Source: Sphaerolaimus hirsutus (taxonomy: Eukaryota; Nematoda; Chromadorea; Monhysterida; Sphaerolaimidae). From it: DNA of 64,000 nucleotides. The DNA is taken from assembly GCA_964036195.1 (NCBI GenBank), contig OZ038457.1:4374635-4438634 (forward strand), read 5' to 3'. The stretch's first letter is position 1; each line of letters opens with the position of its first letter. The translations under genes and the position numbers were made by a program. This document shows, one piece after another, positions 1,287 through 56,400 of this stretch. The notes under the pieces are model-generated. The model was not told the DNA's origin. It did no database searches and saw nothing but the letters and a program-made list of their open reading frames with translations.

Positions 1287-1499
1287 TTTATAAGCAGAAG
1301 AACAAAAATGCAATTGTAGGATATTGTGACTTCAATTCAAGTCACATTCAATGATGCATTTGTATACATTTCACCAGTTTGTCTTTCAATTTATAATTCC
1401 TCCTTTAACAAACTATCAATTGTTAATTCAAAATTGAACTGAACATTTCTATTTATTGGAGCCAGATCATTCGGTTGCCCAGCAGCCAGCTCAATGAAC

Positions 1500-2114
1500 C
1501 AGAGTTGTTAGAATTACTGAACTTTTTTAAAAGTATATGTAAACGTAAAGTATTTTTATTTTACTCACCACAAAGTACAGAAAACGTAAAATACTTATTT
1601 TCTACTCGTACGTATGCGTAAATGCGGGTACTTTTCTTGTGAGTGTAGAAACGACTACTCTTCTACATAGAATATGTAAAAAAGGCACTTTTCATATGTG
1701 TACAGCACAACGTATGTTTTTCTATAAGCAAATGATAGATAAAATAGTTTTCAAGGTCTCTTAGGTATGCTGGGAGATAAAAATCGCCGCTCTCCCGACT
1801 CGTTTCCACTTCTATTGTCTCCACAACCATTTCGATTTGGTTGCGATTTTTTTATTTTTAAAGGCACTACCCCTGCGTATCTTTAATATTCAACGGAACC
1901 ACTTCTCTAAATACATACATAGCAGAGTAGTCACTTTACAAATGTCCTACATTGAATTTTCTGAAATACGTTTTCCGTACGCGTATGCTTTGAAAATGTA
2001 CGCGTACAAGTGCGTACGGTATTTTTTTTAAGAGTATATGTAAATGTATTTACCGCGTACTCGCGTACGCGTATTTTTCGAGTAAACGTACGTATTTACC
2101 TTTTAACAACTTTG
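1500..2114 (+). mobile_element. hAT-like MITE, CAGAGTTG family, in duplicated promoter
   Basis: Termini are CAGAGTTGTTA and TAACAACTTTG, flanked by a perfect 8-bp duplication caatgaac. The inside is built of ACGTAAA and TACGT motifs shared with the elements at 4051, 18061 and 54148. The paralogous block at about 60491 lacks it, giving an empty-site comparison. Confidence 0.85.
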
Positions 2115-5424: not shown

Positions 5425-5547
5425 GTTGAGTGGAAAATGTCTGCAATGCGAAATGTGTTTGAAATTGTCATCAGGGTCATAGGTCGATTTTTTATGTTGT
5501 AATGGTTCATATATGTTTTTAACCTGTCAAATGTTGTATGTCATGAG

Positions 5548-6565
5548 CAGGGTTGGTTTTATAAAAATCATTTGTATACAAATTGTATAAAAATTGTATA
5601 AAAATGTATTTTATTTTTATTTTATTCTTGTTTCATTTTATTTTATTTTATTTTATTCCAAAATAATAATAAAATAATAAAATGGAACATTTTACAAAAA
5701 TTTTACAAAAATTTTACAGAAATTTTACAAAAAATCAGAATCTTGCATGCAAGGTCAGAAAAATGTGATAATTTGACCTAAACATGAAAAACATGTGACA
5801 AATTTTTCCATTACTTTGCAAAAGTTTGCATGCAGTAGGTATTATTAGCTAGTTGCAAGTGTTAAGTTACAATTATCGATAAGAATGATTTGCATTTTCA
5901 GTAGAAGGATTACTGGAGTGTGCTGGGTGCATTTGTAAAACATCATGCAAAGTGTCAATTGTCATGACAAATGTAGTAAAGAGTCAATTGGCAAGCAAAG
6001 TATAATTGTCATGACAAATGTCATGCAGAGTGTAAATTGTGTATCTGAATCTTATGCTTTGGTATCCAAACCTTATATTTTGGTATCCAAATCTTATGTT
6101 TTTGTATCCAAATGTTCACATAAGATTTGGTTACAAAAACAACAAGATTTAGATACAAAAGATAAGATTTGGATACAATTTGCTTTACAGTTTCCACTTT
6201 AATTTATATTTGTCATGACAATTGACACATTACTTAACATTTTCATGAAAATTGACACTTTCCATTCCATTTCATATGACATTTTGACACTTTATATGGC
6301 TTGGGACTGCCCCAGCTCCGTGAATGAACAGGTTGAACTATAAACAACAGAACAAAATTTTACAAAAAATATGAATTTTTATACAATTTTTACAAAAAAA
6401 AGAATTTGTATACAATTTTACAAAATTTTTACAAAAATTCGAATTTTTATACAATTTTTATTTTTATTTTGAAATTTTCCATTTTATTTTATTTTATTTT
6501 ATTCTTGAATTTTCCATTTTATTTTAATTTTATTTTTATTCTTTTCTGAGATCTTGCCAACCCTG
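5548..6565 (+). mobile_element. hAT-like MITE, CAGGGTTGG family, long form
   Basis: Ends CAGGGTTGG and CCAACCCTG are bounded by perfect 8-bp duplications gtcatgag. The 1018-bp interior has TTTTACAAAA and TTTTATTTTA blocks at the edges. In the middle are repeated ATCCAAATCTTATG and TTGTCATGACAA motifs. Near-identical long copies lie at 24663-25677 (inverted) and 51674-52705. Confidence 0.9.
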
Positions 6566-7009
6566 GTCATGAGTTTAAGGTTGGTTAAGAAAGAATAGAT
6601 GAAGTGTGGGATGTTTAAACACATTCTTTTGCTTGCAAGTGGTAAATAAAGGCCACAATATTGCTCAAAGTCGAAATAAAGCATGAGTGATTTTTTGTAA
6701 TTTGTTTTAGCTTTGAGTGATTTTTTCAGTGATTTATATATATTTTCTGTAAAGCTAGAGAGAGTTAAATATATTGATATTTTCAAAAAAAATCTGAGTG
6801 ATTTATTTATATATATTTTCCAAAAAATTGGTGATTTTTTCGAATGCTATGTACATCATTTCGGAGGGGGGGGGGTTATTATTTCCCCAGCCCATTTTGA
6901 GGGGGGGTTAATTCGAGGGGGAGTTAATTCAAGGGGGTGGATAATTCGAGGTAATACGGTACAAATGATAGCTCAATTATTTTATCTGCTCCAATACACA
7001 TACCGGTAG

Positions 7010-13435: not shown

Positions 13436-13548
13436 TATTTCGAGCAAAAGCAAAAGACCTGGGAGTATTTCGAGGGGGCGGGGGGTTAGTTCAAGGGGGG
13501 GTTCAAGGAAATACGGTAGGTATAAAAAATGAAACGTGCCCCGCCTAC

Positions 13549-16500
13549 CTGCAGCCTGCAGCCAATACTCCATTCTCTCCGCGAATTTTTGCATTCCAGT
13601 CGGACAGACTTAATCCCCCCTGGTGCCACTCCCAGACCCTGTAAAATGCCCTGCGAAATGTCTGATGTCAAACGATGGCGAATGTTCATGAAAAAAGTGT
13701 TAAAATTTTTGTTTTCTTTTTCTAAAATGGCTTTCGAATTTTGTTATTTTTCGTCACCTTTTTTGCAGTGTCGCAATGAATAGGTCGATGTGAAATTGAT
13801 GCTTTAAATAGTTCTTCTGCTTTTTTATACAAATTTTTTTTGAAAACATTTTTGAAAACTTTAGAAAATTTGCATGACATTTAACATTTTACATGACATT
13901 TCACAGGGTCCGGGAGCGGCACTTTTTTGTATTCCTCGTCGATTTGTTTCGAGACCTGTTTCCTTTCCTTGTGCAACCGGTCGCAAGTGAGGTTGTTCGC
14001 TTTGATGTAGTGTCTGTAGCCGCTGAGCATCCAGTCCTTGTCCCATGTCATGTTCGCGAAGCATTGCAGCATGGCCGTCGCATCTGCTCAGGCCTTTGGG
14101 CATGGTCATAGAAGAGAACATAAGTTTAATAAAACCTCTCTATGGTGTTTCGATGTAAAAAGCGCCAGATTTTTAGTGTGATGGCCCTTTTCCATCACTA
14201 GTGGTTTTCCACAAATTTGTGGGTTTTTTATATTTGAAAAAGCTCAGAAAATAAAAAATCTTATATTTTTGTATGTACATTTACTATATCTCTTCTAATA
14301 GGAGAGCGCCGTTCTATTTTTTCGTCAACTTTTTTTACCTGCCGTTCTTTTGAAGGTGCCGTTCTATTGGAGGCTGTCGTTCTTTTTTACACCAATTTTT
14401 TTCCACAGCTCTCTCATTTCAACATACTTTATTTTTTTTATGAAGCTATATTTTAATATCAGCGCGTCAATTTGAACGTAAACACCTATTTAAATGCTTT
14501 GAACATTCTCACCATCCATTTTTCATTTATTTTTGTGTTTTGGCACACTCCCAGCATAATTTCTACGGCTCCGCACCTGTACGCACAAACGCCCCGCGCG
14601 CACAAACGCCTGGCACGCACAAAATGAAAGTCCGGTACGCACAAACGCCCGGTATGCACAAAACTGTAGCTGTGTGCGTGCCGCACTGTGCGTGCCAGTC
14701 GTTTGTGCACGCCGGTCATATGTGCATATATGTCATATCATTGTTTTAAATGAGACTCACAACAATCAAAATGAGAGAATGAAATAAAAACATTACAAAT
14801 CAAATTATATCAGTTAAAAATATGAACTGTATTTAAGTGTCTGCTGAATAATTTTCCAACTAAGGGTAGCCGGCTTATATTTTTGAAAGGTTGTCATTAA
14901 TAATAAAAACAGCCGAAAAATTTTAGCCATGCTGCCATGCAAAGGTTTGATGAAATTGCTTCCTCATGCTGCAGTTTGCTGTGTTAGTAGTAGGGTTGGA
15001 AAAAAAACGTTTTTTTTTAACTCGATGTTTTTTTTAAAAAAAAACGTTTTTTTTAAAAGCTCCCAGATATGACCTAGTGTCAACATATATAGGTATATCA
15101 GACACTGGCAATACTCTGTGATGTTAAATATGACCATATAATGGCTGTGGAGCCATGGGATAGCATTATAAGTGGTGATTTGTGTCAAAAATATCCATTT
15201 TTCGTCGACATATTGTTTGTATATCGCCTTATAGTCGAATGTTCGAGACTTCAGGTAAAGTTTGGCACGAAATGGTGATCAAACAAGGTTATAAAAGGAG
15301 GTTGTTACTTTGGGAGTGAAGTTACACACTGTGGAGGTACATGGAAGCACATTACCTCAATATTATATATTACAGCAACATATGTCGGCTTATTCACCCA
15401 TGGTAGCACATAGAAATGGATGTTTTGATACTAAAAATGCAACAAAACCAATGAAAACAACCACCAATGTCAATTTGTGTGTGAAATTGCGCGCTTGCGT
15501 GCAAAAATTTTGCAAAATACCCAGTGCTTAGTACTAAAAATTTCGGCCGATGTTTTTTTTAAAAAAAAAACATTTCGGACGTCATGTTTTTTATATAAAA
15601 AAAAACGTTAAAAAAAAAAAAAAACGTTTAAAAAAAAACATCGGCCAACCCTGGTTAGTAGCCTACATTTTGTTAGGATGTGTATACATTACCAGTGAAA
15701 TGATATCCTACTTTTGATAGCTCAATGTGAAAATGGTATGGTATTTATATGATATATTACTTTGTGCATTCAAAAGCATACACATGTTTTGCTGCAGCGT
15801 CCAATTTTTGTTGGCTTCAGCCATTTTTGGGGGATCACAAATATGTCAAAACGACTGTCAGAATATCGAAAAAATGGTCGATATTCGATATTTTTTTAAA
15901 ATTTTCGATATCGATATTCGATATGAAAAAATGGTCGATATCCGATATTCGATATTCGATACGATATTCGTCCCAACCCTACCGGTACGCACAAATGCCC
16001 GGTATGCACAGAGCATCAGATTTGTGCGTACCGGGCATTTGTGCATGGCGGGCTCAATTTTGTGCGTGCCGGGCGTTTGTGCGCGCCGGGCGTTTGTGCG
16101 TAGGAGGCCTGGCCATTTCTACCTGCCGTTCTATTGGAGGCGCTGTTCAATTGGAGGCTGTCATTCTATTGTTTTCATTGCGCAAAAATGTGCCAAAACC
16201 TGCCGTTCTATTGGAGGTGCCGTTCTATTGGAGGTATGCCATTCTAATAGAATAGATACGGTATATTTTTGCGGTAATTTCCTATAATAGAGGGATTCGC
16301 TTTTGCATATTTCTTTTTGATAAATTTTCTGAGATAATTAATATTTCCAAAAATCACTCATTTCTGGAACACTTATCACTACCCAAGCCCTGTTAAGTGT
16401 CAAGTTAAGTGTCAAATGCATTTGACTTTACACTTGACACTTCACTTTACACTTGACACTTCACTTTACACTTTACAGGGCTTGGGACTGCCCCCAGGTG

Positions 16501-17472
16501 ACCTTGTCTCCTCTGGTTGCACAGGAAGTCGTAGGTGGGCAGCGCGAGCGTGGCCCAGGGGCTGTTCTCGGCCGCCTCTGGGCACGGGTCCAGGCAGCGG
16601 CCCCCGGGCGCCATCTCCCTGCTGAAAAACCTGTAAGGGGCATCCGCTGTGCTCGACAGTTTTTCACGCGACTTATTGACGTATCCGCTAAAGTGATTAT
16701 ATCGTACTGAAATATCTTTGTTTTACCTGGGTCTACCTACTCCCAGAGGCTGTGAAATGTTCTGTAAGATGTCAAATGTCATGCAAGGTGTCAAAGGCCA
16801 TGTGAAATGCCCTGGAAAATGCCAAATTTTATTTGGTTTATGGATGTTTGACATTTTACATTTGACTTTTCAAACTCTGCATTACATTTTACATCACATT
16901 TTACAGAGCCTGGAAGCGACACCTTGAGTAGACTGAGATAACTGACTGGCAGGCGTCATCCACTATGCCTGGCAATGCTCTCTGCAGCTCCGTAAGGGCA
17001 TCCAAATCGCTGTTGTACATATCGTAGTATCTACTCATCTCCTCCCTCCTGGGGCAGTCCCAAACCCCGTGAAATGCCCTGCAAAATGTCAAATGTGATG
17101 CAAAATGTCTGAAGTCATGTAAAATGACATGGAAAATGTAAACTGTGATGCTAAAGTCATGTAAAATGCGCCCGAATCAGGCAAATGTACATTTGCCGTT
17201 TTCCAACGCATTTTACATGTCTTTCGACACTATACATGGTACTTGACATTTTGCAGGACATTTTACAAGGTCTGGGAGTGGCACCAGAAAGTGTTTAAAC
17301 GGTTGTTCATGCAGACCATCGCGTCCTCGCACAGGCCCGGCATGCGGTACATGAGCCAATTGAAGGCCGGCCTCCGCACGGCCCGCAGCATGTCGCTGTA
17401 TGGATCGGCGCTTGCCATTGTAGCCAGCGCCATGACAATGGCACACGAAATGGTGTGACTAGGTGCCATCAT
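13549..17472 (-). CDS. Secreted cysteine-bearing protein, five exons, 3' end not found
   Basis: Five minus-strand exons join in phase: 17472-17285, 17048-16923, 16630-16503, 14083-13923 and 13619-13549. They code about 224 residues. The start is the ATG at 17472, because it opens an ideal signal peptide (TISCAIVMALATMASA, then DPYSD). The mature part has about ten cysteines (LCED, VCMNN, DACQ, RCLDPC, FLCNQ, LQCF, LTCD, AAGC). It also has charged helical stretches such as HKERKQVSKQIDEEYKK. I recognise no domain family. Every intron starts GT and ends AG and every junction keeps the frame, which chance would rarely give. Introns 1 and 4 are short TIR elements. The last visible exon ends AG at a GTAGGCGG donor, so more exons are expected toward or beyond the gap. 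A MITE sits directly against the start codon. Confidence 0.7.
13620..13922 (-). mobile_element. Introner-like TIR element forming intron 4
   Basis: In gene sense the intron begins GTGCCGCTCCCGGACCCTG and ends CAGGGTCTGGGAGTGGCACC then AG. The two ends are inverted copies, and subterminal parts repeat AAATGTC and CATGACATTT. The element end supplies the GT donor, and the acceptor AG lies directly beyond the other end. The 303-bp intron contains nothing else except an AT-rich middle. Confidence 0.7.
14991..15653 (+). mobile_element. hAT-like MITE with TAGGGTTGG and CCAACCCTG ends
   Basis: The ends are bounded by perfect 8-bp duplications gttagtag. The outer parts are AAAAAACGTTTTTTT palindromic runs. 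The inner 0.5 kb is unique, without a gene I recognise. Confidence 0.85.
15855..15980. repeat. CGATATTCGATA simple repeat
   Basis: An array of GATATTCGATAT-type units ends in cccaaccct. It is probably the decayed end of another CAGGGTTGG-type MITE. Confidence 0.5.
16384..16500 (-). mobile_element. Introner-like TIR element at start of intron 3
   Basis: In gene sense the intron starts GTCACCTG and then enters the element end GGGGCAGTCCCAAGCCCTG. The other end is CAGGGCTTGGGTAGTG, inverted. The middle is AAGTGTCAAGTG repeats. The intron extends a further 2.3 kb beyond it. Confidence 0.6.
16736..16922 (-). mobile_element. Introner-like TIR element at start of intron 2
   Basis: The intron donor is the element end, GTGTCGCTTCCAGGCTCTG. 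The opposite inverted end is CAGCCTCTGGGAGTAGG. About 105 further bases separate it from the CTTACAG acceptor at 16631. Confidence 0.6.
17049..17284 (-). mobile_element. Introner-like TIR element forming intron 1
   Basis: The whole 236-bp intron is the element. It begins GTGCCACTCCCAGACCTTG and ends GGGGTTTGGGACTGCCCC then AG. Inner arms repeat AAATGTCAAATGTGATGC. Donor GT is the first dinucleotide of the element, and the acceptor AG is directly outside the other end. Confidence 0.72.
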
Positions 17473-17480
17473 GCTGCGTG

Positions 17481-17742
17481 TAGTGATGTAAAGGCACCGG
17501 GGCACCGGTGCCCCGGTGCTGGGCACCGAAGGGCACCAGCACCGGTGCTGGTGCGGTGCCATTGCAATCTTCAGGGGTGCCATGCCGGTACCGGTGCCAT
17601 TTTTACCAAAAGGCACCGGTGCCGGTGCGGTGCGGTGCCATTTTCTGGCCGGTGCCCCGGGGTGCCAGGTGCCCTTTTCATGCGTTGGCAAAGGTGCTGG
17701 TGCGGTGCGGTGCCATTTTTCCCGGTGCCTTTAACATCACTA
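17481..17742 (+). mobile_element. hAT-like MITE of GGCACC units, abutting a start codon
   Basis: Ends TAGTGATGTAAAGGCACC and GGTGCCTTTAACATCACTA are inverted, and both flanks are gctgcgtg (8 of 8). The inside is short overlapping GGCACCGGTGCC palindromes. The left target copy touches the ATG at 17472 of the secreted-protein gene. The MITE therefore lies immediately upstream of its coding start, where it must contribute leader or promoter sequence. Confidence 0.9.
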
Positions 17743-18327: not shown

Positions 18328-18523
18328 GGGTGAGTCCCAGCCAGACCCTGTAAAATGCCTTATAAAATGTCAAATGGCATGCAAAGTGTCTAAAGTCATG
18401 CAAACTGCCCTGGAAGGTGGCAAATCTTTGCAATTTTGCTGGGCATTTTACATAAGTTTTGTCATTTGCATGAAACTTTACATTTTACAGGGCATCCTAC
18501 AGAGTCTGGGATTGGCACCATAG
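18328..18523. mobile_element. Introner-like TIR element inside a transposon
   Basis: Ends GGGTGAGTCCCAGCCAGACC and GAGTCTGGGATTGGCACC are an inverted pair with AAATGTCAAATGGCATGC subterminal repeats. This is the same family as the introns of the secreted-protein gene. Here it lies in a hAT-like element, showing the family is mobile outside genes. Confidence 0.6.
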
Positions 18524-20349: not shown

Positions 20350-22023
20350 GGGGCCAGATATTATTCTCCCTACAGATTTGTAGGGTAGGGCGTACGCCCG
20401 ATAGATTTTTTAAGTTCAGCCGCATCGACGCACATGCACTGAGAGCAAGGCGCTTTGTAAAATACACGAAAATATCCTTTAAGGTCACCGATATTGCAAT
20501 ATGACGTATATCACTTCGATTTTGGCCCGGAAATCACGATTTCGTCATTTCTTGGCCGTGCGCCAATTCGTTCTTTTTCGATTTTGTCGGGCGCATTACT
20601 CGCATAAGTCGCGCTTTTGTATAGTCACGTGGTCACTTTTTTAGTGTTCACTGCCTTCAACTGAAACCATGACGGCAGCGACAAGAAAGAAATGCCTGCA
20701 TGAGCATACAAAAGCGCGAACTTATGCGAGTAATGCGCCCCATAGGCGGCATAAGTGCTTGCGCGCTTTTAGCGGGATTTTTGGTGTCACAAGCAGAAAT
20801 TTCACTGCCACATTGTGACATTCACAAGCGCATATTGTACAAACAATAGTAAAAGCTCAAAATTAGCTCAAGATCGCTAAAATTTGCTCCATTTTGCCAA
20901 TTTTCTCCTTTATAATCACTATGTTTATCTATATACATGGTTATATGTTTATTTTAGTTATATTTATAGCGATTTCGAAATTTTTGGCTGGCTGCCAACT
21001 TCACATAAGGGCTCCAAAAAAAGGTGTCACAAGGTGAAAATTTGGATAATGTGAATGTCACAAGCGCAAATTGGCAGAGTTGCGAAAGTGTATTTACACT
21101 CACCCGAAATACCCGGATAAATGGGTATTTATATTTACACTTACACTTTTATAAAATACCCTTACACTTTTTTTACACTTTCCAAGCCAAATTACTAGGG
21201 TAATAAAAGTGTAGAAAGAATTTCACATGGGCCAGTTCTACACCTTGAAAAAGTGTAAAACTACAAAAGAAATTGAATGAGAACTGGTGTCAAAAAAACC
21301 CTGCACATGTGCAATAGCTCACCGAAAAAAGAGATCAGGATTTCGGCACACACCAACAACGGCCAGAAATGACACCAGAAATGGCCGCTAATAGTTGGAG
21401 ATGGAAATATCCTGCACACTAGTTGACACATGTGTGTCAACTGGTCTGTGTCAACTAAGATTTCGGCTTTCGTGTTGCAGAGCGATCTCCAAATGCACTC
21501 CAAATGCGCCTGTTTGTCATCGTTGGCGACAGTGTATTTCTATTCATTTCAATTAATTTCAGGTGTATCCAAATCTGTTGGTGTCTTGCCAAGTCCTCAT
21601 ATGGCATGAAATTTTTACACTGACAGTTTTTTTTACACTTTCCTAGGTATTTTAAAAATACCTTACACTCACAGTATCCATGCACAAAATTTTGTAAGTG
21701 TATTTACACCTACATTTACACTTTCTAAAAATACCAGTATTTTAACAACTCTGCAAATTGGGACCTTGCGCCGCCTATGATGCGCCCGACAAAATCGAAA
21801 AAAGAACGAGTTGGCCGATGGCCAAGAAACGACGAAATCGTGATTTCCGTGCCAAAATCGAAGTGATATACGTCATATTGCAATATCGGCGACCTTAAAG
21901 GATATTTTCGTGTATTTTACAAAGCGCCTTGCCTTCAGTGCATGTGCGTCGATGCGGCTGAACTTAAATAATCTATCGGGCGTACGCCCTACCCAAATCT
22001 GTAGGGAGAATTAAATCTGGCCC
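20350..22023. mobile_element. Foldback element with long inverted arms
   Basis: About 240 bases at each end are inverted copies (GGGCCAGAT, CTCCCTACAGATTTG, GGGCGTACGCCC, CCGCATCGACGCACATGCA). Sequence further in (about 20530-20760) is also partly mirrored near 21770-21830. The core holds a nested hAT-like MITE. No coding region was recognised. Confidence 0.75.
21075..21753 (+). mobile_element. hAT-like MITE, CAGAGTTG family, in foldback core
   Basis: Ends CAGAGTTG and CAACTCTG lie in perfect 8-bp duplications caaattgg. Arms are rich in GTGTATTTACACT and ACACTTTT. The middle 0.35 kb is unique. Confidence 0.88.
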
Positions 22024-23404: not shown

Positions 23405-26400
23405 TCATTCAATTGGAATCACAGCCCTCCACATTCTGGGGGTAACCATGGATGTATTCAAAAGTTCCCACTGAGCTTGACCTTGTGAACTCTCATTCAA
23501 AACTTGGACATTGAGCCCTCCTTTGCTGGATCCATCACTATGAATGTGCCTTCCATCAAACCAATACAGAGTGTTGTTCAATGTGACCATACTTCCTCCC
23601 ATACCAGGCCTCACCAGGGAGTAGATCACAGTATCCCATGCATTGGATGTAGGATTGAATCTGCATGCAAGCAGCCTCAATTAGTGGCTGTCATTCATGG
23701 ATTCTTTTAAAATAAGCAAAAGATCCAACAATGTTTGTTTTTGGAAGGGGGTCTAATTGAAAAAATAGTCTGAATATGTGTGCAATGAAAAACCACATAC
23801 AGATATGCTAGAATCGCGTATTTCCAAATCATTTGTTATCATTTTTTTGTGGTTTGGTACTGTCAAAGTCATGTGCTGGCGGACTTTTTGATAATATATC
23901 CTAGGTATGTGAAATTTATGTCACCTATTTTGCACAATTTTGCTGCCACTTCAGTCATGTAAATGAAAATGTAGTGAAACAGCCTCACATGTCATGCAAC
24001 AGGTCATAAGTAGTCACAGCAAAAAATGGGGGTGTGATGTGTGGTGAAGCGTGATTTTTGGTGAAGTGTCTTCGGCCAAAATTTCATGAAGCGCGCTTCC
24101 CGATGCTGACACAGTGAAGACACTTCACAAACATTGTGTAGCATCGTTGACGCATGTCTGTGATGTGAAGTGTCATCACATTCAACTTCGTGAAGCGCCG
24201 GGAAGCGCTGACCAGCTTCGTGAAGTGTCAGGAAGTGTTGCTGTGAAGCCACTTCAAGACGCTTCACGACTCATCAAACCCCCATTTTTTGCTGTGAGTT
24301 GCAAAATGTCAGTGGTGGTCACAGCAAAAAATGGGGGTGTGATGAGTCGTGAAGCGTGCTGGATGCGCGTGAAGCGGCCTCTGTGAAGACACTTCCACAC
24401 GCTTCAACACGCTTCATGAGATTTTTGGTGAAGTGTCTTCCACACACTTCACCTAGCTTCACGATGGCCAAAATTTCGTGAAGCGCGCTTCCCGATGTTG
24501 ACGCAGTGAAGACACTTCACAAACATTGTGCATCATTGTGGACGCACGTCTGTGATGTGAAGGGTCATCACATTCAACTTCGTCAAGCGCCGGGAAGTAC
24601 CGACCAGCTTCGTGAATCATCGGGAAGTGTTGCCGTGAAGCCAATTCAAGACGCTTCACGACCAGGGTTGGCAAAATCTCAGAAAAGAAGAAAAATAAAA
24701 TAAAAATAAAATGGAAAATTGAAGAATAAAATAAAATAAAATAAAGTGGAAAATTTCAAAATAAAAATAAAAATTGTATAAAAATTTGAATTTTTGTAAA
24801 AATTTTTGTAAAATTGTATACAAATTCATATTTTTGTAAAAATTGTATAAAAATTCAATTTTTTTGTAAATTTTTTTTCTGTTGTTTATAGTTCAACCTG
24901 TTCATTCGCGGAGCTGGGGCAGTCCGAAGCTGTGTAAAGTGTCAAAATGTCATATGAAATGGAATGGAAAGTGTCAATTTTCATGAAAATGTTAAGTATG
25001 TTATGTTATCAATTGTCATGACAAATATAAATTAAAGTGGAAACTGTAAAGCAAATTGTACCCAAATCTTATCTTTTGTATCCAAATCTTGTTGTTTTTG
25101 TAACCAAATCTTATGTGAACATTTGGATACAAAAACATAAGATTTGGATACCAAAATATAAGGTTTGGATACCAAAACGTAAGATTCAGATACACAATTT
25201 ACACTCTGCACAACATTTGTCATGACAATTATACTTTGCTTGACATTTGAGATGCCAATTGGCTCTTTACTACATTTGTCATGACAATTGACACTTTGCA
25301 TGATGTTTTACAAATGCCCCCAGCACACTCCAGTAATCCTTCTACTGAAAATGCAAACCATTCTTATAATACGATAATTGTAACTTAACACTTGCAACGT
25401 TTGCAAAGTAATGGAAAAATTTGTCACACGTTTTTCATGTTTAGGTCTAATTAGTATCACATTTTTCTGACCTTGCATGCAAGATTCTGATTTTTTGTAA
25501 AATTTCTGTCAAATTTTTGTAAAATTTTTGTAAAATGGTCCATTTTATTATTTTATTATTATTTTGGAATAAAATAAAATAAAATAAAATGAAACAAGAA
25601 TAAAATAAAAATAAAATACATTTTTATACAATTTTTATACAATTTGTATACAAATGATTTTTATAAAACCAACCCTGTTCACGACGCATCAAACCCCCAT
25701 TTTTTGCTGTGGGTATTCAAACTGACTTTACACAGCTGCTGTACATCTCTCTACTGAACATTTCTCCACCGCAGAGTATCAGCTGACCCCTGTGCACAGC
25801 ACATTTTGCCAGTACCCTGTCTTCTGGCAGAGATGTTTCAGTTTGCCAGGTCCATTTTGTGCCCATTGACTCAACAGCTGCAGTGTTATTTCAGTAAATT
25901 TTCAACTGGATACTAAACAGCGGACACGCCAGGTTCGGCACCTAATTTCTGAGTCAGTGCCGGACGCCATACACAGCAACTTCAGAAAAATTTATGTGAG
26001 TTTATGTGCCCATTTGTTTACTGTGCATAAATCTCACATAAATTTTACATCAATACATAAATCCCACATAAACTCACATAAATTTTTGTTGAGACGCATC
26101 AGCACTGTGGCTGTAACCTCTGATCTCAATAAAAAAATTTATTTGTCATAAGATCCGGTGTCATGGGAAAGTCTGTGTATATCAATTTTTTAATTGTTTT
26201 CCAGAATTGTCAATAATTATTTATTGTACACATTGCAATTCCCATATGAAATTGTAAAATTGATGTTATCATCATGTCAGTAGGTAAACATGCAAATGTA
26301 AAGATCAATTTCAATACGTCCATATAAAACTGATATTTCAATCTTGAACTTGATCACGCAGAAAAATAATCCTTGCATCATTGCATTTAATGTTCCAAAA

Positions 26401-29400: not shown

Positions 29401-32400
29401 GAGGTGCTGTTGCCAACTGATGCAATTAACAACTTATTAAAGCGGGATAACTTTGTTTATTTGGCAAATAAATGGCATGATCATGAGTGGACCCAATCAC
29501 AATTCACTGATGTTTTTGATGGGGCAATTTGGCATGATTTCATGTCAACAAATGTATGTGTTGCAGTCACAAAATATTTTATCAATATTCCCTTTTTCAA
29601 TGTGGATTAATTAACATAAACTTTCCAGGATGAACCTGAAACATTGAAGCTTGCATTTGCACTGAATTTTGACTCATTCCAAGCTTTTTCCCGTCGTCAA
29701 TACAGTGTTGGTGCATTCTATTTGCAATGTCTGAATTTGCCTGGCGCGTGCAGAGGCAAGGTCAGTAATAATTAATTATTGCTTTTGTCAAAAAAATACA
29801 TAAGCATAATTACTTGCGAAAATTACAACAGACACAAAATGCAATGAATGTGGGCAACATACCATCCGCAGCTGGGAAAGAAATGAAGCCAGATGCATTT
29901 ATTGAACCCATTGTCAAGGATTTTGTTAACCTGCAAAATGGTGTTGAATTTACTACCTCTGATCAAACAACAATCAAAGTGAAGGGTGAGTCAAACACCA
30001 TAATCAAATCCTTCCAAATCATTTTCTATGTTTGAATGGAACATTCCTTTCAGCTTATTTGCTGCATGTCACTTGTGATATCATGGCTACTCGTGCACTG
30101 TGCGGCTTCCCATACCCATCATCGTATATGGGCTGCAGCAAGTGTGAATTACAAGTGATAAGACAGCAAGAACATAAAAGGAAACATCTTGGAAATTGGG
30201 GACATGGGCTCCAGTATCTACAAGCTGCAAGCACACCTGAGGGACAGAGCCTTGACTTGCCTGGTCAGTCAGTCATTTGACTATGCCATAGTTGAAGAAT
30301 AATAAATTTTTAAGTGTTTTAAAAAAGTTGATTTGCAAAAAGAGAATCTTATCTCTGTAGAAACTGCCATGTAGAATATTGTTGTGATTATAACTGGCAT
30401 TTTTTATGGCACAAATTTCTCATCAGTAATATCTGCCAACCAGCAGTATTCAAAGAATTTTTTTCAAATAAAAATGTGTTATGTGTCATGACATGCAATG
30501 TAGTTGAACAATAATATGTGTTTAAGTGTTTTAAAAAATGTTTATGTGCAATAAGTAAGTCTTGGCTGTAAAGATTACTGTATTTTTTTTGTCAATTATG
30601 TGTCTCCACACTGGTTATTGTCACCAGTTTTGGTCACAACAATACCTGAATGGTTTTCTACAGAAATAAATTTTCCTTATTGCACATCAACTTTTTTTAA
30701 AACACTTAAACACATGAATTTTCACATATTATTACATATAATACATTTTTATGACACATAAATATTGAAATTGTTATGTGTCATGACATGCAATGTAGTT
30801 GAACAATAATATGTGTTTAAGTGTTTTAAAAAATGTTTATGTGCAATAAGTAAGTCTTGGCTGTAAAGATTACTGTAATTTTTTTGTCAATTATGTGTCT
30901 CCACACTGGTTATTGTCACCAGTTTTGGTCACAACAATACCTGAATGGTTTTCTACAGAAATAAATTTTCCTTATTGCACATCAACTTTTTTTAAAACAC
31001 TTAAACACATGAATTTTCACATATTATTACATATAATACATTTTTATGACACATAAATATTGAAATAAAATTTCATCATATAAACATTTCCATTTACATT
31101 TTCATTTGTTATATCTCATATTTGTAATACAGAATGTTTATGTGCCATACAAGAAGTTTATTTTGTTTTAAATTGATGCTGCTGCAATCTATTCATATTT
31201 TCATTTAAATGCATGTTCAATTTTACAGGTGAATGGCAGGCCAGGACAGACAAGAAACACAGATTAGCAAGAGAAAAAATCATTTCACAATCTGTGGAAA
31301 ATCCAGCACTGAACAAAAATGCTCTGGGGCTGCAGTTAGGATACAAGTTGACTGCCTTACATGAGTTGGATTACTTTGACACAGTGAGGATGCACTGCAT
31401 TGATTCCATGCATTGTCTTAACCTGGGTATTGCTAAACGTGTAGTATCAATCTGGAATGAATGTAAAAGTGTGAAATTAGAGAAATTTGATGGGATTTTG
31501 GCAAAGATGCAACCCGTGATGGGTAGTGACAGAATCCCATCAAAGTTCACTGGTAACTGGACCACATTTAAAGCAATTGAGTGGCAGCACTTTATACTGA
31601 ACTACTCTGCACTGATCGTCACAAATGAGCTGTTTAGCATGCCAATTGTTACATACTGGAGACATTTTCGTTCAGCCTGCAAGGCATTAACTAAGGCTAG
31701 TATAACAACAACTGATTTGAGGATTTATGTTTGGCATATGATTCACTTTGTGAAAGGATTTATCATTGTTCATGGACAAGCTGCATGTACATCAAATTTT
31801 CACTTGGCATTTCACATCCCGCAGTGTGTGTTAGATTTTGGCCCAATACCTGGTTTTTGGCTGTATCATTATGAAAGGTTGAATTATGTTTTGGCGCGAA
31901 TTCCGACAAATAATAAGTTGGACATCAATTGTCAAATGATCAGGCGATTTAGCTACTTTTCATGTTTTTTGAATGTTGAGATTGATATTGGTGATTTTGA
32001 TACATCGTGTAGGCGTGCGAAATTGAAAAAATTGCAAAGTTCACCTTTGTTTGACGTTGATATTTTGAGTGACATGGGTGATGTGATGTGTGTGGGTAGG
32101 TGTAAAAAATGTGCACTAACAGACACAAATTCGTTGCATCAGCAGTTCTTTAAAATGTACAGGAAGTTTTTTGGGCAAAATTTTACCACTGATTGTATGA
32201 GTTCTGACATTACTGTTTATCAGCGTGTGGATTTTTTTGGTCTGTCATTTGTAGGTAAGGATGCTACTACAAATTGTGGTTTTTCCAGGTGGGTTGTAAC
32301 ACTGTCTCATGAAAACAATCGCTTCATCAATAGGGTGGGTTGTGTGACAAAGTTTTTCAGACACTCTGTTCAGTTTAACAGTAATGAGTACACTTTCATT

Positions 32401-35400
32401 TTCGCTTGTGTGCAGCACTACAATTTGGGTATGTATTGCAGATCGATAGGTCCGTACACAGTTGATTCTTTTGTTATTAACACTGAGAATAAGCACGGTG
32501 ATGCTCCTGTTATTATTCCGATACAGTTTGTTATTTCCAGGCTTCTTATTGGAGAGTTTGCAGCTAATGGAAAAGCTATTGATACATGGCTTGTTGGCGT
32601 TCCATATGACACAATTCACAACTTGTAATGGTGAAACTTGTTGTTTGAATATTGGTGCATTGAATAAATTGAATTGAAATAGCCTTGATGACAAATACAC
32701 ATACAAACATGGTTGGCAAAATCTCAGAAAAAAATAAAAATAAAATATTAATTTAAGAATTGACATGAGACTTGACATTTTGCATGAAAATTGACACTTT
32801 ACTTTACGTTTGCATGACACAAAATAAAATAAAACAAGAAAAAAATTAAAATAAAATACATTTTGCTACAATTTTTATAAACAATTTGTATACAAATAAT
32901 TTTTATAAAACCAACCTTGCATACAAACAACATAAATAAATAATTATGATCGTGTGAAAACTGCATGTATCACTCATACACAGATTCTCGAGACACCGGT
33001 TGTGACCACAACTCACATAAATGCTTTTTAATAGAATTCACATAAAATACATTTATGTCAAATCCGTTAAAAAATTTATGTGTCGCTGAACTGACATAAA
33101 TACACATAAATTTTTTTGAAGTTGCTGTGATATCTTCAGCTGTAGTGGGGGGATTTATTTGAAATTTTGAGATTATATACTCGACTTCCCCCTAGTACTT
33201 TATAGGGGCTGCGGAAGGTCAGCGACCCACCTGAGTGTGGACCGCCGTATACATGAATATTATTTTTTGAAAAAATCGCCGTCCACGCGAGGTCCGGCAC
33301 CCAGGTGTTTTTACAGTATAACGTGCTGCCAATCTAAAACTGTTCGGGGGAATTGATCGAAATTTTGAGGGGTGTACACGACACACCCCACTACTTTTCA
33401 CGGAAGGTTGAGCCCCCTGGCGACCCCCCTGAGAGTGGACCGACAGAAAATAAACTGATATTTTTGAGAATTCACTGTCCAGGTTTGGCACTGGACACCA
33501 AAAATTGAAATTACATTACAATGTCCCTTAGAGGACTATGTATACCACTGTAAAAAGTGTGTATTTAAAAAGCAAATTTTCAAACGAAAATTTGAACTGG
33601 TATGCAAATGTATTTGACACCCATACACAAGTTCCAGATTAAATTTAGATGCAATGTTGTTTATGCGAATTTTTACCTTTAATCATCTCCTAGAGGACAT
33701 CGTAAACCAAAAGTGTGAAGTGCTTATTAATGTTTTGACTAAAATCGAAATTTTATCTAGAACTTGTGTATGGGTGATGAATACACTTTCGTACCAGATA
33801 AAATTTTTGTTATAAAATTTGCTTTTTTAGTACACACTTTTTACAGTGGTATAGATTGTCCTCTAATGAACATTCTAATGTAATTTTTATTTTTGCTGTC
33901 CAGTGCCAAATCTGGACAGTGAATTCTCAAAAATATCAGTTTATTTTCCAGCTGTCCACACTCGTCGCCAAAGGGCTTGACCTTCCATGAAAAGTATTGG
34001 AGGGTGTCGTGTACACCCCCTCAAAATTTCTGTCAATTCATCTCAACAGTTTTAGATTAGCAGCGCGTTATACTGTAAAAACATGGGGTGCTGGATCTCT
34101 CGTGGACACCTGTTTTTTTCAAAAAGAATTCACATATACAGCGGCCACACTCAGGTAAGTCGCCGGGGCCACCCCTGCAGTGTATAGTCGAAGGGGTATA
34201 TTCCGAAGTGGTATTTAGAGTATATTCCCCCAAAATTTCTAATTTTCAACCCCCCTAGAACCGGAGTTATAGGCTCCATAACCGACTCAACTTTTGGGTG
34301 CCGGACCTGGCGTGTCCCCTGTTTACAATGTTCCTGGTAGTCATATCCTGTGCTAAGACTACAATCAACATGATGATGCTCAATATATATTGACTAGCGG
34401 GATTCTCTCCAACCTTCGGTCAGTATTCGCAGTATTCTACACTTCTTCAGAATAAATGTTTGTAGAGTTCAAATATGTAGGTGGAAATATGGCTAACCAA
34501 TCAGGCGTAAAAACGTAACGACAATTCTGTGTAGACACTCCGACGACTCGAGGATGACCATGTGTGACCGAATGACGGCCCGCGGTGCACAGGGAAGTTA
34601 CAGTGAACGTGCGGTTCGCTGTGCACTGCAAATCCACCAACGAAGCCGCAGCCCCAGGACGGTACGCCCGAATGGACACTACTGCGGCCATGAATTTATT
34701 AATTAATTTCTTTTCCGTTAATTACGTATTTACTTTCCGTGTGATGCTAATTTTTCATTTCATGTTTCATTAATTAAGCTAATTAGGTTACCCGCACTTT
34801 CGGTTAATTGAGTGATTACTTTCGTTTTTCTTTAAATGCATTTTCCAACATGTAATTTTCGAATGTTATAATTTTTAGGTTTTTATCAAGTTTACATATT
34901 TGGTCAAAAGGGTGCAGTGTCTGGGAATGGGTTAGAAAAGCTTAAAGTTTCTTGTTAAGCTAAAAGGTGTTGACTCTGTTAAACGCCTAGACGCCCCGAT
35001 AGATAACATTCAGAAATTTACCCGACCAAGTGCATTTTTATTTAGGACTGGGTAATGGGTGGAAAAGTGGCTAACGGCAATTATTGTGACATGCGACTGC
35101 AAGACACATGCAGAGCACAGTTTACAGTGAAGAGCACAGCAGTGCCAATCAATTATTCCCATCACCTAGGGTGATTGGCGAACTCACAAGTGCTAGTGTT
35201 TTTGCAGCGTGTGTTCAGGCCCAAAGTTCCAACCCTTACCCGGCAATGCAATAACCTTGAACAACCCCCGCAAATGAGCGTTCTTTCTGTGGCCTTGGTC
35301 GGGCGCGCCATAAAATATTTTTCAACTAAAGGGGCGCAGGTTGATAACACGTGTCACACCACCTGCTCTAGAATGTACCGTAGTCTTTGAATAGAAACCC

Positions 35401-50400: not shown

Positions 50401-53400
50401 CCAATTCTTTCTTACAGTCTAAATCAGGGGTTCAGTCTGGCGGGGGTTGGAGGGGGGTAGGGGGGTTACCCCCCAACAAACGCACCGGCTATCTATCTAT
50501 CCCTGGTGCCGCTCAGCTATCTATCTAACCTGAGGCTAAATTTTAGGCTAAAGTCGGCGGACATTTCACCCTACAAAATCGGAGAGTTAGAATTCGCTCG
50601 TGAATAGAGCGAACAACGAAACTTGTGTCCCACGCGGACGCTAGAAATTGAAAAAGAAAATCATATTAAAAGAAAAATGGACGTTTCGCTGCGTCCGTGC
50701 GTGCCACGCCCTAGTTATCTACATTTTTAACGTTGCTCGTAAAGAATTTGACCGTTAAACTACCGTTTTACCGTTCAAACTGCCGTTTTTGTTTTTATTT
50801 TATTTTTCATTCATTGGCTCCGTTCCAACAGAAGAGAACTTGGCAGCCGGCCAAAATTTCGAAATCCGCTATTAATATGAATAAAATGGGCTCACAATAG
50901 CTGTATAACCATGTATATAAACAAAAATAGCGATTATGAAGGTAGAAATTGGCAAAGCGAAGCAAATTTCAACGATTTTTAGCTAACTTTCAGTTTTCAC
51001 TCTCATTTGTATAACACGCAACTGGTAACTGGGGTAAGGGCCAAGTTTTCGTACGTGACCCGATCTATTCCAATGGTTAAAATATTGCGTCACAATACCT
51101 AATGCCGTCATGCACTCTCCACTGGAGAGACTGACGCAAATGTTTGTAGGGCGATACGTCTGCCGACTTTACTATCGCTCGAGCCCCACACCCCCCCCCC
51201 CCAAATCGACCAGATATGTATCTCTCCAGAGCAATTTTTCGAGAAATTTTGCCCTGATTTAGTGGTTGTTTGAATGGGCAAAAGTTGAATACCGTATTTC
51301 CTCGAAATACCCCCCCTCGTTTGACCCCCCCCCCCGTTTAAGGTATTTTAAAGGGACAATTATTTGTGATGGTAGAGTATCATGTCCACCAAGTATACAT
51401 TTGTAGAATGTATAAAATCAACAATGAAATGTGGCATCTAAGATATGGCATCTGACATGAATATGTGTAACCATACGCCAGGAGAATGTAAACTGAACAT
51501 GTACCTGTGGAATGTAAAGTGTCGCACAGGTAGAGGGTGGCACATTTTCACACAGAATGTAAACTGACGCACACTAGAATGTAAACTGTCGCATCGTTGA
51601 AGAAACGTAAAACTTTTTTGCAAGAATGTAAACTGTCCAGAATGTAAAGTGGCCTGGGGCCTGGCCTCCTGATCAGGGTTGGTTTTATAAAAATTCATTT
51701 TAGTAAAATTGTATAAAAATTGTATAAAAATTTTATTTTATTTTAATTTTATTCTTGTTTCATTTTATTTTATTTTATTCCCAAAAGTCATTAATAAAAT
51801 AAAATGACACATTTTACAAAAATTTTACAAAAATTTTACAAAATTTTTACAAAAAATCAGAATCATGCATGCAAGGCCAGAAAAATGTTATAATTAGACC
51901 TATACATGAAAAACCTGTGACAAATTTTTCCCTTACTTTTCAAAAGTTGCATGCAGTATGTATTGTTAGCTAGCTGCAAGTGTAAAGTTACAATTATTGA
52001 TAAGAATGGTTTGCATTTTCAGTAGAAGGACTAGTGGAGTGTGCTGGGCACATTTGTAAAATGTAATGCAATTTGTCAATTGTCATGACAAATGTAAAGT
52101 AAAGAGTGTCAATTGTCATGCAAAATGTCAAGTGTCATGTCAAATTTCAAGCAAAGTGGCAATTGTCATGACAAATGTCACATAAAGTGTAAATTGTGTA
52201 TCCAAATCTTGTGTTTTTGTATCCATAGTATGTGTTGTATCCAAATCTTATGTTTTTGTATCCAAATGTTCACATAAGATTTGGATTCAATAACAACATA
52301 ATTTGGATACAAAACATAAGATTTAGATATAAAACATAAGATTTGGACACAATTTGCTTGACAATTGATACTTTATTTTTTACATGTCGTGACAATTTAC
52401 ACTTTACCTTAGATTTGTCATGACAATTGACACTTTGCATGACATTTTACATTACATTTGACACTTTACACTTGGGACTGCTCCCAGATCCATGAATAAA
52501 CAGGTAGAAACTCAAGCAACCAGATAAAATTTTACAAAAAATATGAATTTTTATACAAGTTTACAAAATTTTTACAAAAATTCGAATTTTTATACAATTT
52601 TTATTTTTATTCTTAAATTTTCCATTTTATTTTATTTTATTTTATTCTTGAATTTTCCATTTTATTTTTATTTTATTTTTTTTTTCTGAGATTTTGCCAA
52701 CCCTGCTCCTGATGAATTACAATGACATTTTGTGTCAAAAATACCTATCCTCAGATATTTTGTCTAGCCTTTGAAAGAAAATATCTAAGCACAGAAAAAT
52801 GTTTAGGTGCCGATTAACTATATATACTGTATATCCTCAAATAAGTCCCAACGGAGTTATTTTTTTGTCAGAACTTTTTGAGGGGGGAGTTAATCAAGAG
52901 GGTAAGTTTTTTGAGGGGGGTATTGTTCATCAGACTATTAAGTAAAATGCATGATCAATATATTGTAAAGAGGGTTGAATTAATTGCATAAACCTGTAAG
53001 TCAGTATAGTAATTCATTAATTCATGCAATGAAATGAGGTAGTGAAGATACGCTGAAATATATACCTACATCCTTTTAGATAATACCTAAACACCTTCCC
53101 GGTCACGTCCGGCAGCCATTTTTTGATTTTACTTCTTATATCCTATCCCCAGTTCTACGGCGCCCCCAAGGCTGAAACTTGGGGGATACATTGGCGCGAC
53201 CCCCCCCAATTCATGCGACGTAGAGGGGGGTTGCGACAATATCTCCCCCAAGTTTCAGCCTCGGGGGCGCCCTAGAACTGGGGATAGGATATAAGAAGTA
53301 AAATCAAAAAATTGCTGCCGGACGTGACCGGGAAGGTGTTTACATAAAAACGTTGTTTTGTATATGGACATCTTAGTCACCCATTTAACAGGAGGGAGTT

Positions 53401-56400
53401 ATTCTAGAATGGGGGGGGGTTCGAGGGGGACTTAATCGAGGATATATGGTACATATATATATATTTATATATATATTTATTTATTTACTGTATTACTTTG
53501 AAATGTCCCCACAGGGGTTTATTTTTTAGCCAGCAAACTTTGAGGGGGGAGCTTTTTTGGGGGAGAGGGGGGTTATTAATTTTTCAGAAACTTTTCAAAG
53601 GACAGTAGTAAAGATTATGCTCTGACATACCTAAACCTGGTAAAAAATGTACCTACCGTATTACCTCGAATTCACCCCCCTCCTTGAATTAACCCCCCCT
53701 CGAAATACCCCCCTAAAATTCGGCTGAGGAAATAATAAACCCCCCTCGAAATACCCCCCCCCCTAAAATTGAGTGTAGAGAGAATGTACATGACAAATAC
53801 CGCAGTTTGTTATCTGTACAATGCAGAACACACGTTAAAACTGATGATTGAGTGACGTGAGGGGCAGGGTTTGTGTGTAAATATATACAGTTATGTATGC
53901 CTATCAACACACATACATCTATGTAATTGTTTGATTTTTCTACGTCTGAGTATGGGTAATCTCTGAAAATTTCTGGCGAAATAATAGACCCCCCCACCCC
54001 CCTCGAATAAACCCCCCTCGAATTATCCCCCCTCAAATTTTACTGGCGAAAAAATAAACCCCCTGGGGGTATTTCGAGGTAATACGGTATCCAGGTTACA
54101 TTTGTACATGCATACATGTATATTCACACAAAGTGGTCTATGTGTAGCAGTGTTGTTCAAATACTGGTATTTTTGGAAAACGTAAATGAAAACGTAAATA
54201 CCTTTTTCAAATAAAAATATAAATAATAATATGTAAGATATTTTTAAAGTAGCAAGGAATACGTAAAAGAACGTAAACGTAAAAAATATATACGCGTACT
54301 ATTTGCCATTGTACTTTGAAGAAAAAAAAACTATTTTTTACACCATTAGATGTGTCAAACATTGATTCCTTTGCAATATCTTCATTTTTTAGCACTACAC
54401 TACATGCTCACCATCATCAACAACCTTTAGTGTGACAACTCAAACAAATGATAATTATCTAACACAAACAACGATGAGATGAGCATAAAAATAGAGCAAA
54501 AATTACACCTTTTTGCAATTAAATCTGATAAACAACTCTCGCTCCAAGAATATTCAAAAACAGCAAAAACGGTCTACTTTACATGCTTGGCATATGACAC
54601 ATTACGTAATGCATTTTTATGTAGCCTTTTTTTCTGTATATTACTGCATGCATGCAGTCACTTTTTGTTTATATACTCCAGCGACGTTACACCTTACAAT
54701 GAAATCTACCATATCCCATCTGAATAAAAGAACAAACATTTAAAAAAAATTCATCATATTTATCAAATTGCTTTGATAAATATGATGAAATTATTTTATG
54801 TTTGTTATTTTATTCAGATGGTATATGGTAGATTTCATTGTAAGGTGTAATGTCGCTGGAGTATACACCCTTTTTTTTGTGCAAGAATGCACCAGTTTTA
54901 AACACGTGAACGTGTCATCGATGGGAATTTTTTTACGTTTTTACCATTACCCAGGTATTTCGGTCAGGAATACGTAACAATACATAATGGTATTTTCCAA
55001 ATACCGTATTACCTCGAAATACCCCCATGGGGGTTTATTATTTCACCAGCAAAATTTGAGGGGGGGGGGTTAATTCGAGGGGGGGTTTATTCGAGGGTTT
55101 TTTTTATCATTTCGTCAGAACCTTTCATAAGGATCGTAGTAAATAGTAGGCATTTGCATACCCAAAACAGGTAATAAATGTGTCCAAACAGGATATATTT
55201 GGACATAATAACGTAGATAGCTACACAAACTAGTCTATGTGTAGCTGCAATACAAATTAACAGAAATATACACCATGTACATTGCATACATGACGTATTT
55301 ATTATGTGCATGACGTACATCAGTCCGAAGGGGGGGGGGGGTATTTCGAGGGGGGGGGGTATTTTTTCCCCAGCCCATTTTGAGGGGGGTTAATTCGAGG
55401 GGGGGGGGTTTATTCAAGGGGGGAATAATTCGAGGTAATACGGTACGTAAACGTAAATATAAATACCAAAATACCCGGGTATTTCGGGTAACCATAAATA
55501 CGTTTTTGCAACACTGATGTGTAGCTTCTTGCATTAATTAATACGTCATGTATTTACATTGCATACATGATGTACAATACTCTAGATGGGGGTATTTCGA
55601 GGGGTTCTATTTTTTCCTCAGCAATACGGTACTCGCAGAAGTAAACGTGCTTGGAGAAGTAATAAAGATAGGTAAGTAATTCTGACTAGTGATGTAAAGG
55701 CACCGGGGCACCGGTGCCCCGGTGCTGGGCACCGAAGGGCACCAGCACCGGTGCTGGTGCGGTGCCATTGCAATCTTCAGGGGTGCCATGCCGGTGCCGG
55801 TGCCATTTTTGTCAGAATAGCACCGGTGCCGGTGCGGTGCGGTGCCATTTTTTTGCCGGTGCCAAAGGTGCTAGCACCAGGGCCAAAGTAAAAGGCACCG
55901 GAAAAGGCACCGGCCAAGGCTTTATGTGCCGTGAAATTTTGTCCATAGTATGTGCTTATTCATATTTCAAAAAACAGCGATACATTTACCCAACCGTTTT
56001 TGTCTATTTTGTAAACCTCCCATCAAATAAATCCCATCATCCGATCAAATAACCTCCCATCATTATACTGTGAAATCCATTATACCCGATACGTGATCTG
56101 ATGAACAAATCTAAAAGTTTGTTGAATTTTAAATCATTTTTATATTTTATATTTATCTTACTTGTTTGTTCAAAATCTGTTGTCAGTTTATGACAGAGAT
56201 AGTTCCATTCTCTGTACAGCAACCACTCCGATCAGTAGACAATAGTGGCTATGGACATTGCAGTGAATTAAATATTTTATCTTTCATTTGTCATCATTGT
56301 AATTGCTTCATAAAAGTGATTGCCACATCATTCTGATCATTTTAAGAGCTCAACCATCAAAATCGGTTGAAAATTCATGGAAATATGCACTTCCAAAGGT

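Follow-up and report, generated by a model that had tools for sequence, protein, structure and literature searches.

A large family of short inverted-repeat DNA transposons predicted to act as an introner in the nematode Sphaerolaimus hirsutus

How new introns originate is a long-standing question. Here we describe a family of short elements in the genome of the nematode Sphaerolaimus hirsutus, copies of which lie in a 64,000-nucleotide stretch of contig OZ038457.1 (C13:4374635-4438634 of the 348-Mb assembly of 762 contigs), hereafter termed the window; coordinates of features in the window are given on the + strand. COX1, encoded on contig C762, contains 14 in-frame TGA codons; translated with the invertebrate mitochondrial code and compared with the best 120 of 7,999 matches, it shares 64-67% identity with the proteins that carry an organism name, almost all from insects, and 68-89% with the top five, in keeping with an invertebrate. 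Our analyses of these sequences make it very likely that the elements form one large family of short, nonautonomous DNA transposons that acts as an introner, with splicing predicted from reading frames. The evidence that carries this reading comes from 64 usable elements, among which copies were found in seven conserved genes where the flanking reading frames are predicted to rejoin after removal of the element together with one CAG.

A genome search with the end pattern CTCCCAGACCCTGTAAAATG, allowing up to three mismatches, returned 29,245 matches (14,677 + 14,568) compared to 34 (15 + 19) for the reversed pattern. A sample of 70 loci, taken from the first 100 listed exact matches to the element end, yielded 81 element calls with a median length of 188 bp; 64 of the calls had a usable duplication, and the remaining 17 were excluded from later counts. 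Identical CWG trinucleotides (CAG or CTG) flanked 42 of the 81 calls when 1 nt of freedom was granted at each end and the offset was picked to favor CWG. With fixed offsets and good cores only, 19 of 39 pairs were identical, whereas 2,000 random pairings gave 9.4 on average and 17 at most. The 64 usable elements comprise 34 with one GT and one GG end, 5 with two GT ends, 3 with two GG ends, and other mixtures. The consensus of the 34 GT/GG elements reads CWG|GTGCCACTCCCAGACC...GGTCTGGGAGTGCCCC|CWG, with ends GTGCCACTCCCAGACCCTGTAAAATG...CATTTTACAGGGTCTGGGAGTGCCCC. The third base of their GT end is G in 34 of 34 (the GT itself being fixed by the selection of the set), and their duplications are CAG/CAG in 16, CTG/CTG in 10 and unequal pairs in 8. 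For one insertion (CTG...CTG at locus L049), three element-free paralogs, located at L067, at L068 and in the window (21411 to 21498, + strand), each carry a single CTG. The earlier note on this DNA had proposed a mobile family, to be checked by a genome search with its terminal bases; the end matches, the CWG duplication in the sample and the empty sites of the L049 insertion bear this out.

In the copies that were folded, most of each fold-back arm is base-paired, so that a single stem would hold donor and acceptor at its base or close to it. Exact matches across the genome number 754 for CAG|GTGCCACTCCCAGACC and 631 for CTG|GTGCCACTCCCAGACC (p = 0.001; GT end only). Because CWG is its own reverse complement, random insertion would give equal CAG and CTG counts, barring an orientation preference of the transposase. 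In a scan of viral contigs, one pattern matched once, in a 152-kb IMG/VR contig, and no element was found in the 1,001 bases around the match; a second pattern had no match in viral contigs, and a third had none in the genome contig collection.

To look at coding flanks, we deleted each element in silico along with one of its duplications and kept every frame that was open over 20 codons or more on both sides, which gave 116 frames, 34 of them with a GT in sense and an AG in the right-hand duplication. All 116 were scanned against Pfam, as ten frames picked by eye, ten more and then 97 (one L016 frame was entered twice); in the 97-frame scan, 33 residues per side were strung together with X, making it less sensitive. 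Nine conserved-gene cases emerged, and seven of these have CAG on both sides. Specifically, matches above the Pfam cutoff were obtained for a lipase (L021; junction in a gap-free block), Mak10/NAA35 (L022), SapA and GILT (L025; junction at the SapA edge, before GILT), a C2 domain (L064) and an SNF/SLC6 transporter (L057), in which 53 residues align with 53 profile positions across the junction without a gap. Two others fall below the cutoff, namely PLC (L028), supported by a solved PLC structure, and the kinase-like region of an ANP-receptor-like guanylate cyclase (L044), which matches the ANP receptor structure and is gap-free at the junction. The remaining two cases are the DNA primase large subunit (L006, element at 1495-1671, minus strand; above the cutoff, gap-free at the junction), with CGG on the left and CTG on the right, and a TPT/SLC35-like protein (L003, element at 1495-1677, minus strand; below the cutoff, E = 1.9e-5), with CTG on both sides.

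A GT stands at the 5′ end in sense in all nine conserved-gene cases, L025 and L064 having GT at both ends. In the informative cases, GT is in sense in 7 of 7 (chance 0.008), and the GT-plus-CAG class accounts for seven of the nine (chance 0.004). As predicted from these frames, conserved coding sequence is restored by removing GT..CAG, in agreement with the proposal of the earlier note that a DNA transposon creates introns. A mariner transposase at L052 is likewise interrupted (GT, CTG) and stands outside the nine. No convincing homolog was found for the L016 frame (GT, CTG). Matches to ATG43, an IFT122 zinc ribbon, TraF_2 and a second C2 in L064, all below the cutoff with E values of 0.01-0.1, were not counted.

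These observations are consistent with a simple mechanism. A PIF/Harbinger-related transposase of the NuwaI kind would insert the element at CWG and duplicate that trinucleotide. For an insertion with CAG on the gene strand and its GT end toward 5′, the transcript would read ...CAG|GTGCC.....CAG|..., the GT of the element would serve as donor, the duplicated CAG would serve as acceptor, and excision would restore the original message. A TTTTAC motif ∼20 nt from the element end may be the branch point, and pairing of the long fold-back arms would place the two splice sites close to each other in the RNA. Copies with CTG cannot use the CAG-acceptor route and would have to be spliced at a TG or at the AG within the GGGAG of the right arm, use of which would leave nine in-frame bases. 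It is conceivable, if doubtful, that the duplicated CWG works as a switch through its middle base, such that CAG copies are excised exactly as GT-AG introns and CTG copies, too, are excised where they interrupt essential genes (DNA primase, SLC35-like), either as GT-TG introns or via the right-arm AG with nine in-frame bases left behind. If so, there would be hundreds of noncanonical or residue-adding introns, all derived from the same transposon.

In the window, copies of the element coincide with introns of a predicted five-exon gene for a secreted-type protein, which lies on the minus strand and can be read through in a single frame, the intron phases being 2, 2, 1 and 0. Exon 1 (17285 to 17472) is an open frame with a hydrophobic start and Cys residues, has a GC content at third codon positions (GC3) of 0.76 and ends CTG|GT. 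Intron 1 (17049 to 17284; 236 nt) is exactly element Ed (17051 to 17284) plus AG; its flanks are CTG/CAG and its element boundaries CTG|GTGCCACTCCCA...GGGACTGCCCCAG|GAG. The frame continues in exon 2 (16923 to 17048; GC3 0.64). Intron 2 (16688 to 16922) starts with element Ec (about 16730 to 16922), the first base of which is the donor (16922) and which is flanked by AAG on the left and by CAG and then GTAAAAC on the right. The acceptor of this intron is uncertain, as 16688, 16631 and 16622, about 39-105 nt past Ec, are all compatible with the frame, and the choice among them sets the start of exon 3 (16503 to 16687; GC3 0.81). Intron 3 (14084 to 16502; 2419 nt) contains element Eb (about 16377 to 16496), with its non-GT end in sense, 5-8 nt downstream of the donor (16502), the distance depending on whether CTG is counted as element. 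Exon 4 (13923 to 14083; GC3 0.76) is followed by intron 4 (13620 to 13922; 303 nt), which is exactly element Ea (13623 to 13922) plus CAG, with boundaries AAA|GTGCCGCTCCC...GGGAGTGGCACCAG|GGG, and by exon 5 with the stop codon (13545 to 13619).

The earlier note had described introns 1 and 4 as consisting of the element, with GT as its first two bases and AG past its other end, and introns 2 and 3 as starting at or within 8 bases of it. Both descriptions hold: the donors of introns 1 and 4 are the GTs of Ed and Ea themselves, Ec sits at the donor of intron 2, and Eb lies just inside intron 3. As a source of introns, the element fits introns 1 and 4; the claim does not extend to all four, since Eb, with its non-GT end in sense, cannot have made intron 3, and intron 2 extends past Ec. 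Introns 1 and 4 would be older products whose duplications have eroded, Ec would have joined an intron 2 that predates it, landing on the donor or next to it, and Eb would have entered an intron 3 that was already there. The CAG|GTAAAAC after Ec looks like the donor of an older intron. The sequence CCAG|GTAAAAC directly past Ec (16720 to 16731, minus strand) fuses an acceptor to a donor, like a recursive splice site.

By chance, an exact GT..AG with comparable open flanks was obtained in 31 of 123,458 window placements of a 236-nt random segment and in 63 of 123,190 placements of a 303-nt segment. GC contents at codon positions 1, 2 and 3 of exons 1-4 are 0.48, 0.45 and 0.75. The flanks of Ea can be read in a second phase as well (72 and 43 codons), making exon 5 the least certain part of the model. 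For the protein predicted from exons 1-4, no homolog was found among 175 candidates at E ≤ 10 in the protein collection, and no Pfam family scored above the cutoff; support for this gene therefore comes from frame and composition alone. The model of the gene may be wrong even though the family acts as an introner elsewhere, a reading that the missing homolog and the ambiguities of exon 5 and of the intron 2 acceptor favor. We consider it unlikely, since the predicted frame has the highest third-position GC in four of four exons and the frames are consistent across four introns.

Several points weigh against the introner reading of the family. The ten frames picked by eye were scanned at greater length than the 97, so that detection favored them. 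In two of the nine conserved-gene cases (L006 and L003) the right-hand trinucleotide is CTG, leaving no AG at the right edge of the element. The NAA35 alignment has a one-residue gap at the junction and that of PLC a three-residue gap near it; the matches of PLC, guanylate cyclase and TPT are below the Pfam cutoff, and SapA/GILT and C2 were counted from Pfam matches alone, without a printed alignment. The excess of CAG over CTG at the GT end could reflect a bias in insertion orientation and not selection. As for open-frame length, a comparison of 54 GT strands with 74 non-GT strands gave p = 0.022, that of GT/AG strands with all others gave p = 0.12, and in elements with one GT end the GT strand was the longer one in 24 cases and the shorter one in 19, with one tie, which is not significant. 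Because of the p value of 0.12 and the paired 24:19 result, frame length is a weak discriminator, and homology carries the argument. Finally, by a hand-written splice-site scoring matrix, donors at the element edges score low in the window gene (1.2-4.5, compared to 5.7 and 10.1 for two donors of a PAN-domain gene in the window), and the edge acceptors are outscored by acceptors inside Ed (8.8 versus 7.1) and inside Ea (7.0 and 5.5 versus 2.2).

These internal acceptors suggest an alternative, in which the element would be cut within its own sequence, at a donor CT|GTAAAATG and an acceptor CATTTTACAG| in its arms or at the GGGAG with its AG, and pieces of its ends would stay in the message. 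By our own reading of the sequence, one such internal pair in Ed keeps the frame, too. Internal sites would also account for the CTG copies, since L003, L006 and L016 all contain the AG of GGGAG, and splicing there would leave 9 in-frame nucleotides. In the printed alignments of SLC6, lipase, guanylate cyclase and primase, the proteins run colinearly through the junction once the element and one duplication are taken out, with no need for extra residues. This argues against end pieces but falls short of proving their absence from the message, and we regard internal splicing as having only a small chance of being correct.

Smaller still is the chance that the element is an ordinary miniature inverted-repeat transposable element (MITE) whose copies lie in preexisting introns or dead genes and coincide with splice sites by chance or through a preference for CAG|G sites. 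Such a MITE would explain Eb and the window copy Ef as plain intronic insertions, Ec at a CAG|GTAAAAC that resembles an older donor, and the fact that a conserved coding flank was not found for most of the 64 usable elements. It does not explain copies inside conserved domains whose flanks join without loss, GT in sense in all seven informative conserved-gene cases, or the genome-wide excess of CAG|GT. Propagation through RNA by reverse splicing, a route proposed for the introner-like elements of fungi, would fit the complete set of splice signals in the element and is very improbable given its inverted ends, target duplication, empty sites in a repeat, occurrence in both orientations relative to CAG/CTG and 3-bp duplication at a copy outside genes (L049).

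The family that we interpret as an introner has the marks of a DNA transposon, with inverted ends and a target duplication, and is probably a NuwaI-like (PHIS) MITE. The passages on the NuwaI group of PHIS transposons in PMC4482050 describe a CWG duplication, ends usually starting with GGG and occurrence mainly in animals. Similar to that group, the element here has a 3-bp CWG duplication (by the free-offset and strict counts and the empty sites of one insertion) and an animal host. In the 34 GT/GG elements, the GG end resembles the GGG-type start, whereas both ends are GG in 3 of 64. Membership is likely, not established. Unlike NuwaI as described in those passages, which do not mention introns, one end starts with GTG. 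Assignment to hAT was rejected, as the duplication is 3 bp and not 8 bp, and so was assignment to strict PIF/Harbinger, the duplication being CWG and not TWA. An autonomous partner is expected to have the ends GGGGCACTCCCAGACC / GTGCCACTCCCAGACC. The genome contains at least 163 DDE_Tnp_4 matches, one copy of which (L073) was read, and no partner with DDE and Myb/SANT genes and the same ends was found. The family of L073 was rejected as partner, its ends differing from those of the element. It appears to be a homogeneous, Harbinger-like DDE_Tnp_4 family, with many places of near-equal score, ends that contain AGTTTACC, and a reading frame cut by apparent short introns.

The mechanism proposed here is known in other lineages, and this family is new. 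An earlier description of the element was not found in a literature search that was not exhaustive and covered few subscription journals. According to Huff et al. in 2016, the introners of Micromonas pusilla and Aureococcus anophagefferens are reportedly short nonautonomous DNA transposons, with one splice site said to come from the element and the other from the duplicated target. The present family is likewise made of short nonautonomous DNA transposons in which element and duplicated target would share the supply of splice sites. It differs from those introners in its sequence, its 3-bp CWG duplication, its animal host and its very many copies, most of which, in our sample, lie outside recognized genes. 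The survey of Gozashti et al. 2022, in the portions considered here, includes a class of introners that carry the 5′ splice site and co-opt the 3′ site (Chrysochromulina, Fig. 2C legend), to which the element described here would correspond, and it also reports that some introner families have inverted ends and duplications and that some add codons (PMC9860276). Its main text contains neither the word Harbinger nor the word superfamily (PMC9860276). For the introner elements of Amoebophrya, PMC7789003 describes inverted repeats that form a hairpin joining the exon boundaries, along with short direct repeats at these boundaries. Fold-back inverted repeats and short direct repeats at the boundaries are shared by the elements described here; unlike the Amoebophrya elements, which were defined among noncanonical introns, the main class here is GT-AG (PMC7789003).

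Among animals and land plants, introners were found in two groups only, both of them animals, according to the portions of the 2022 survey considered here (PMC9860276); the family in S. hirsutus would be a very numerous animal family with near-identical ends. Its insertion follows a simple rule (CWG), the genome that carries it also contains empty sites, and splice-competent copies occur alongside noncompetent ones. Intron gain would be tied to a recognizable type of transposon, and the survival of insertions could be measured directly against their splice signals.

Two further copies lie elsewhere in the window. Element Ee (18331 to 18518) lies in repeat sequence in which no gene was recognized; the placement of a copy near 18328 within a hAT-like element was not confirmed. 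Element Ef (57247 to 57392), with CTT on both sides, had been placed at an acceptor of a lectin-kelch gene. It lies inside an ordinary intron (57201 to 57432; 232 nt), about 40-45 nt from each splice site, and in six frames scanned around it a PAN domain scored above the cutoff and no kelch was found. An 8-bp repeat at Ef was rejected as a hAT duplication, as repeats of at least 8 arose in 107 of 3,000 random placements with equal freedom in the first 13 kb of the window, and genomic copies have 3 bp.

Three relatives of the element are nested in a hAT-type repeat. E7 (5927 to 6313) lies in the copy at 5540 to 6573, E8 (52047 to 52485) in a second copy at 51666 to 52713, and a third relative (24933 to 25312) in a minus-strand copy at 24655 to 25685, the coordinates of this last one being approximate. 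The repeat is a 1.03-kb hAT-type MITE with ends CAGGGTTGG/CCAACCCTG and 8-bp duplications (GTCATGAG, GTCGTGAA and CTCCTGAT), and all three of its copies in the window carry the same nested relative.

The window holds other features as well. A 483-aa open frame at 31177 to 32628, without a Pfam match, resembles, on our reading, a CACTA/EnSpm-type transposase. On the minus strand, a long open frame that leaves the window (62195 to 64000) has a subthreshold match (E = 0.0043) to a viral fusion glycoprotein family and looks like the envelope gene of an endogenous element. Lastly, a recurrent GC-rich repeat of GGTGCCGGTGC-like words is present at 17481 to 17742, 55687 to 55863 and 56486 to 56651, some copies being 95% identical.

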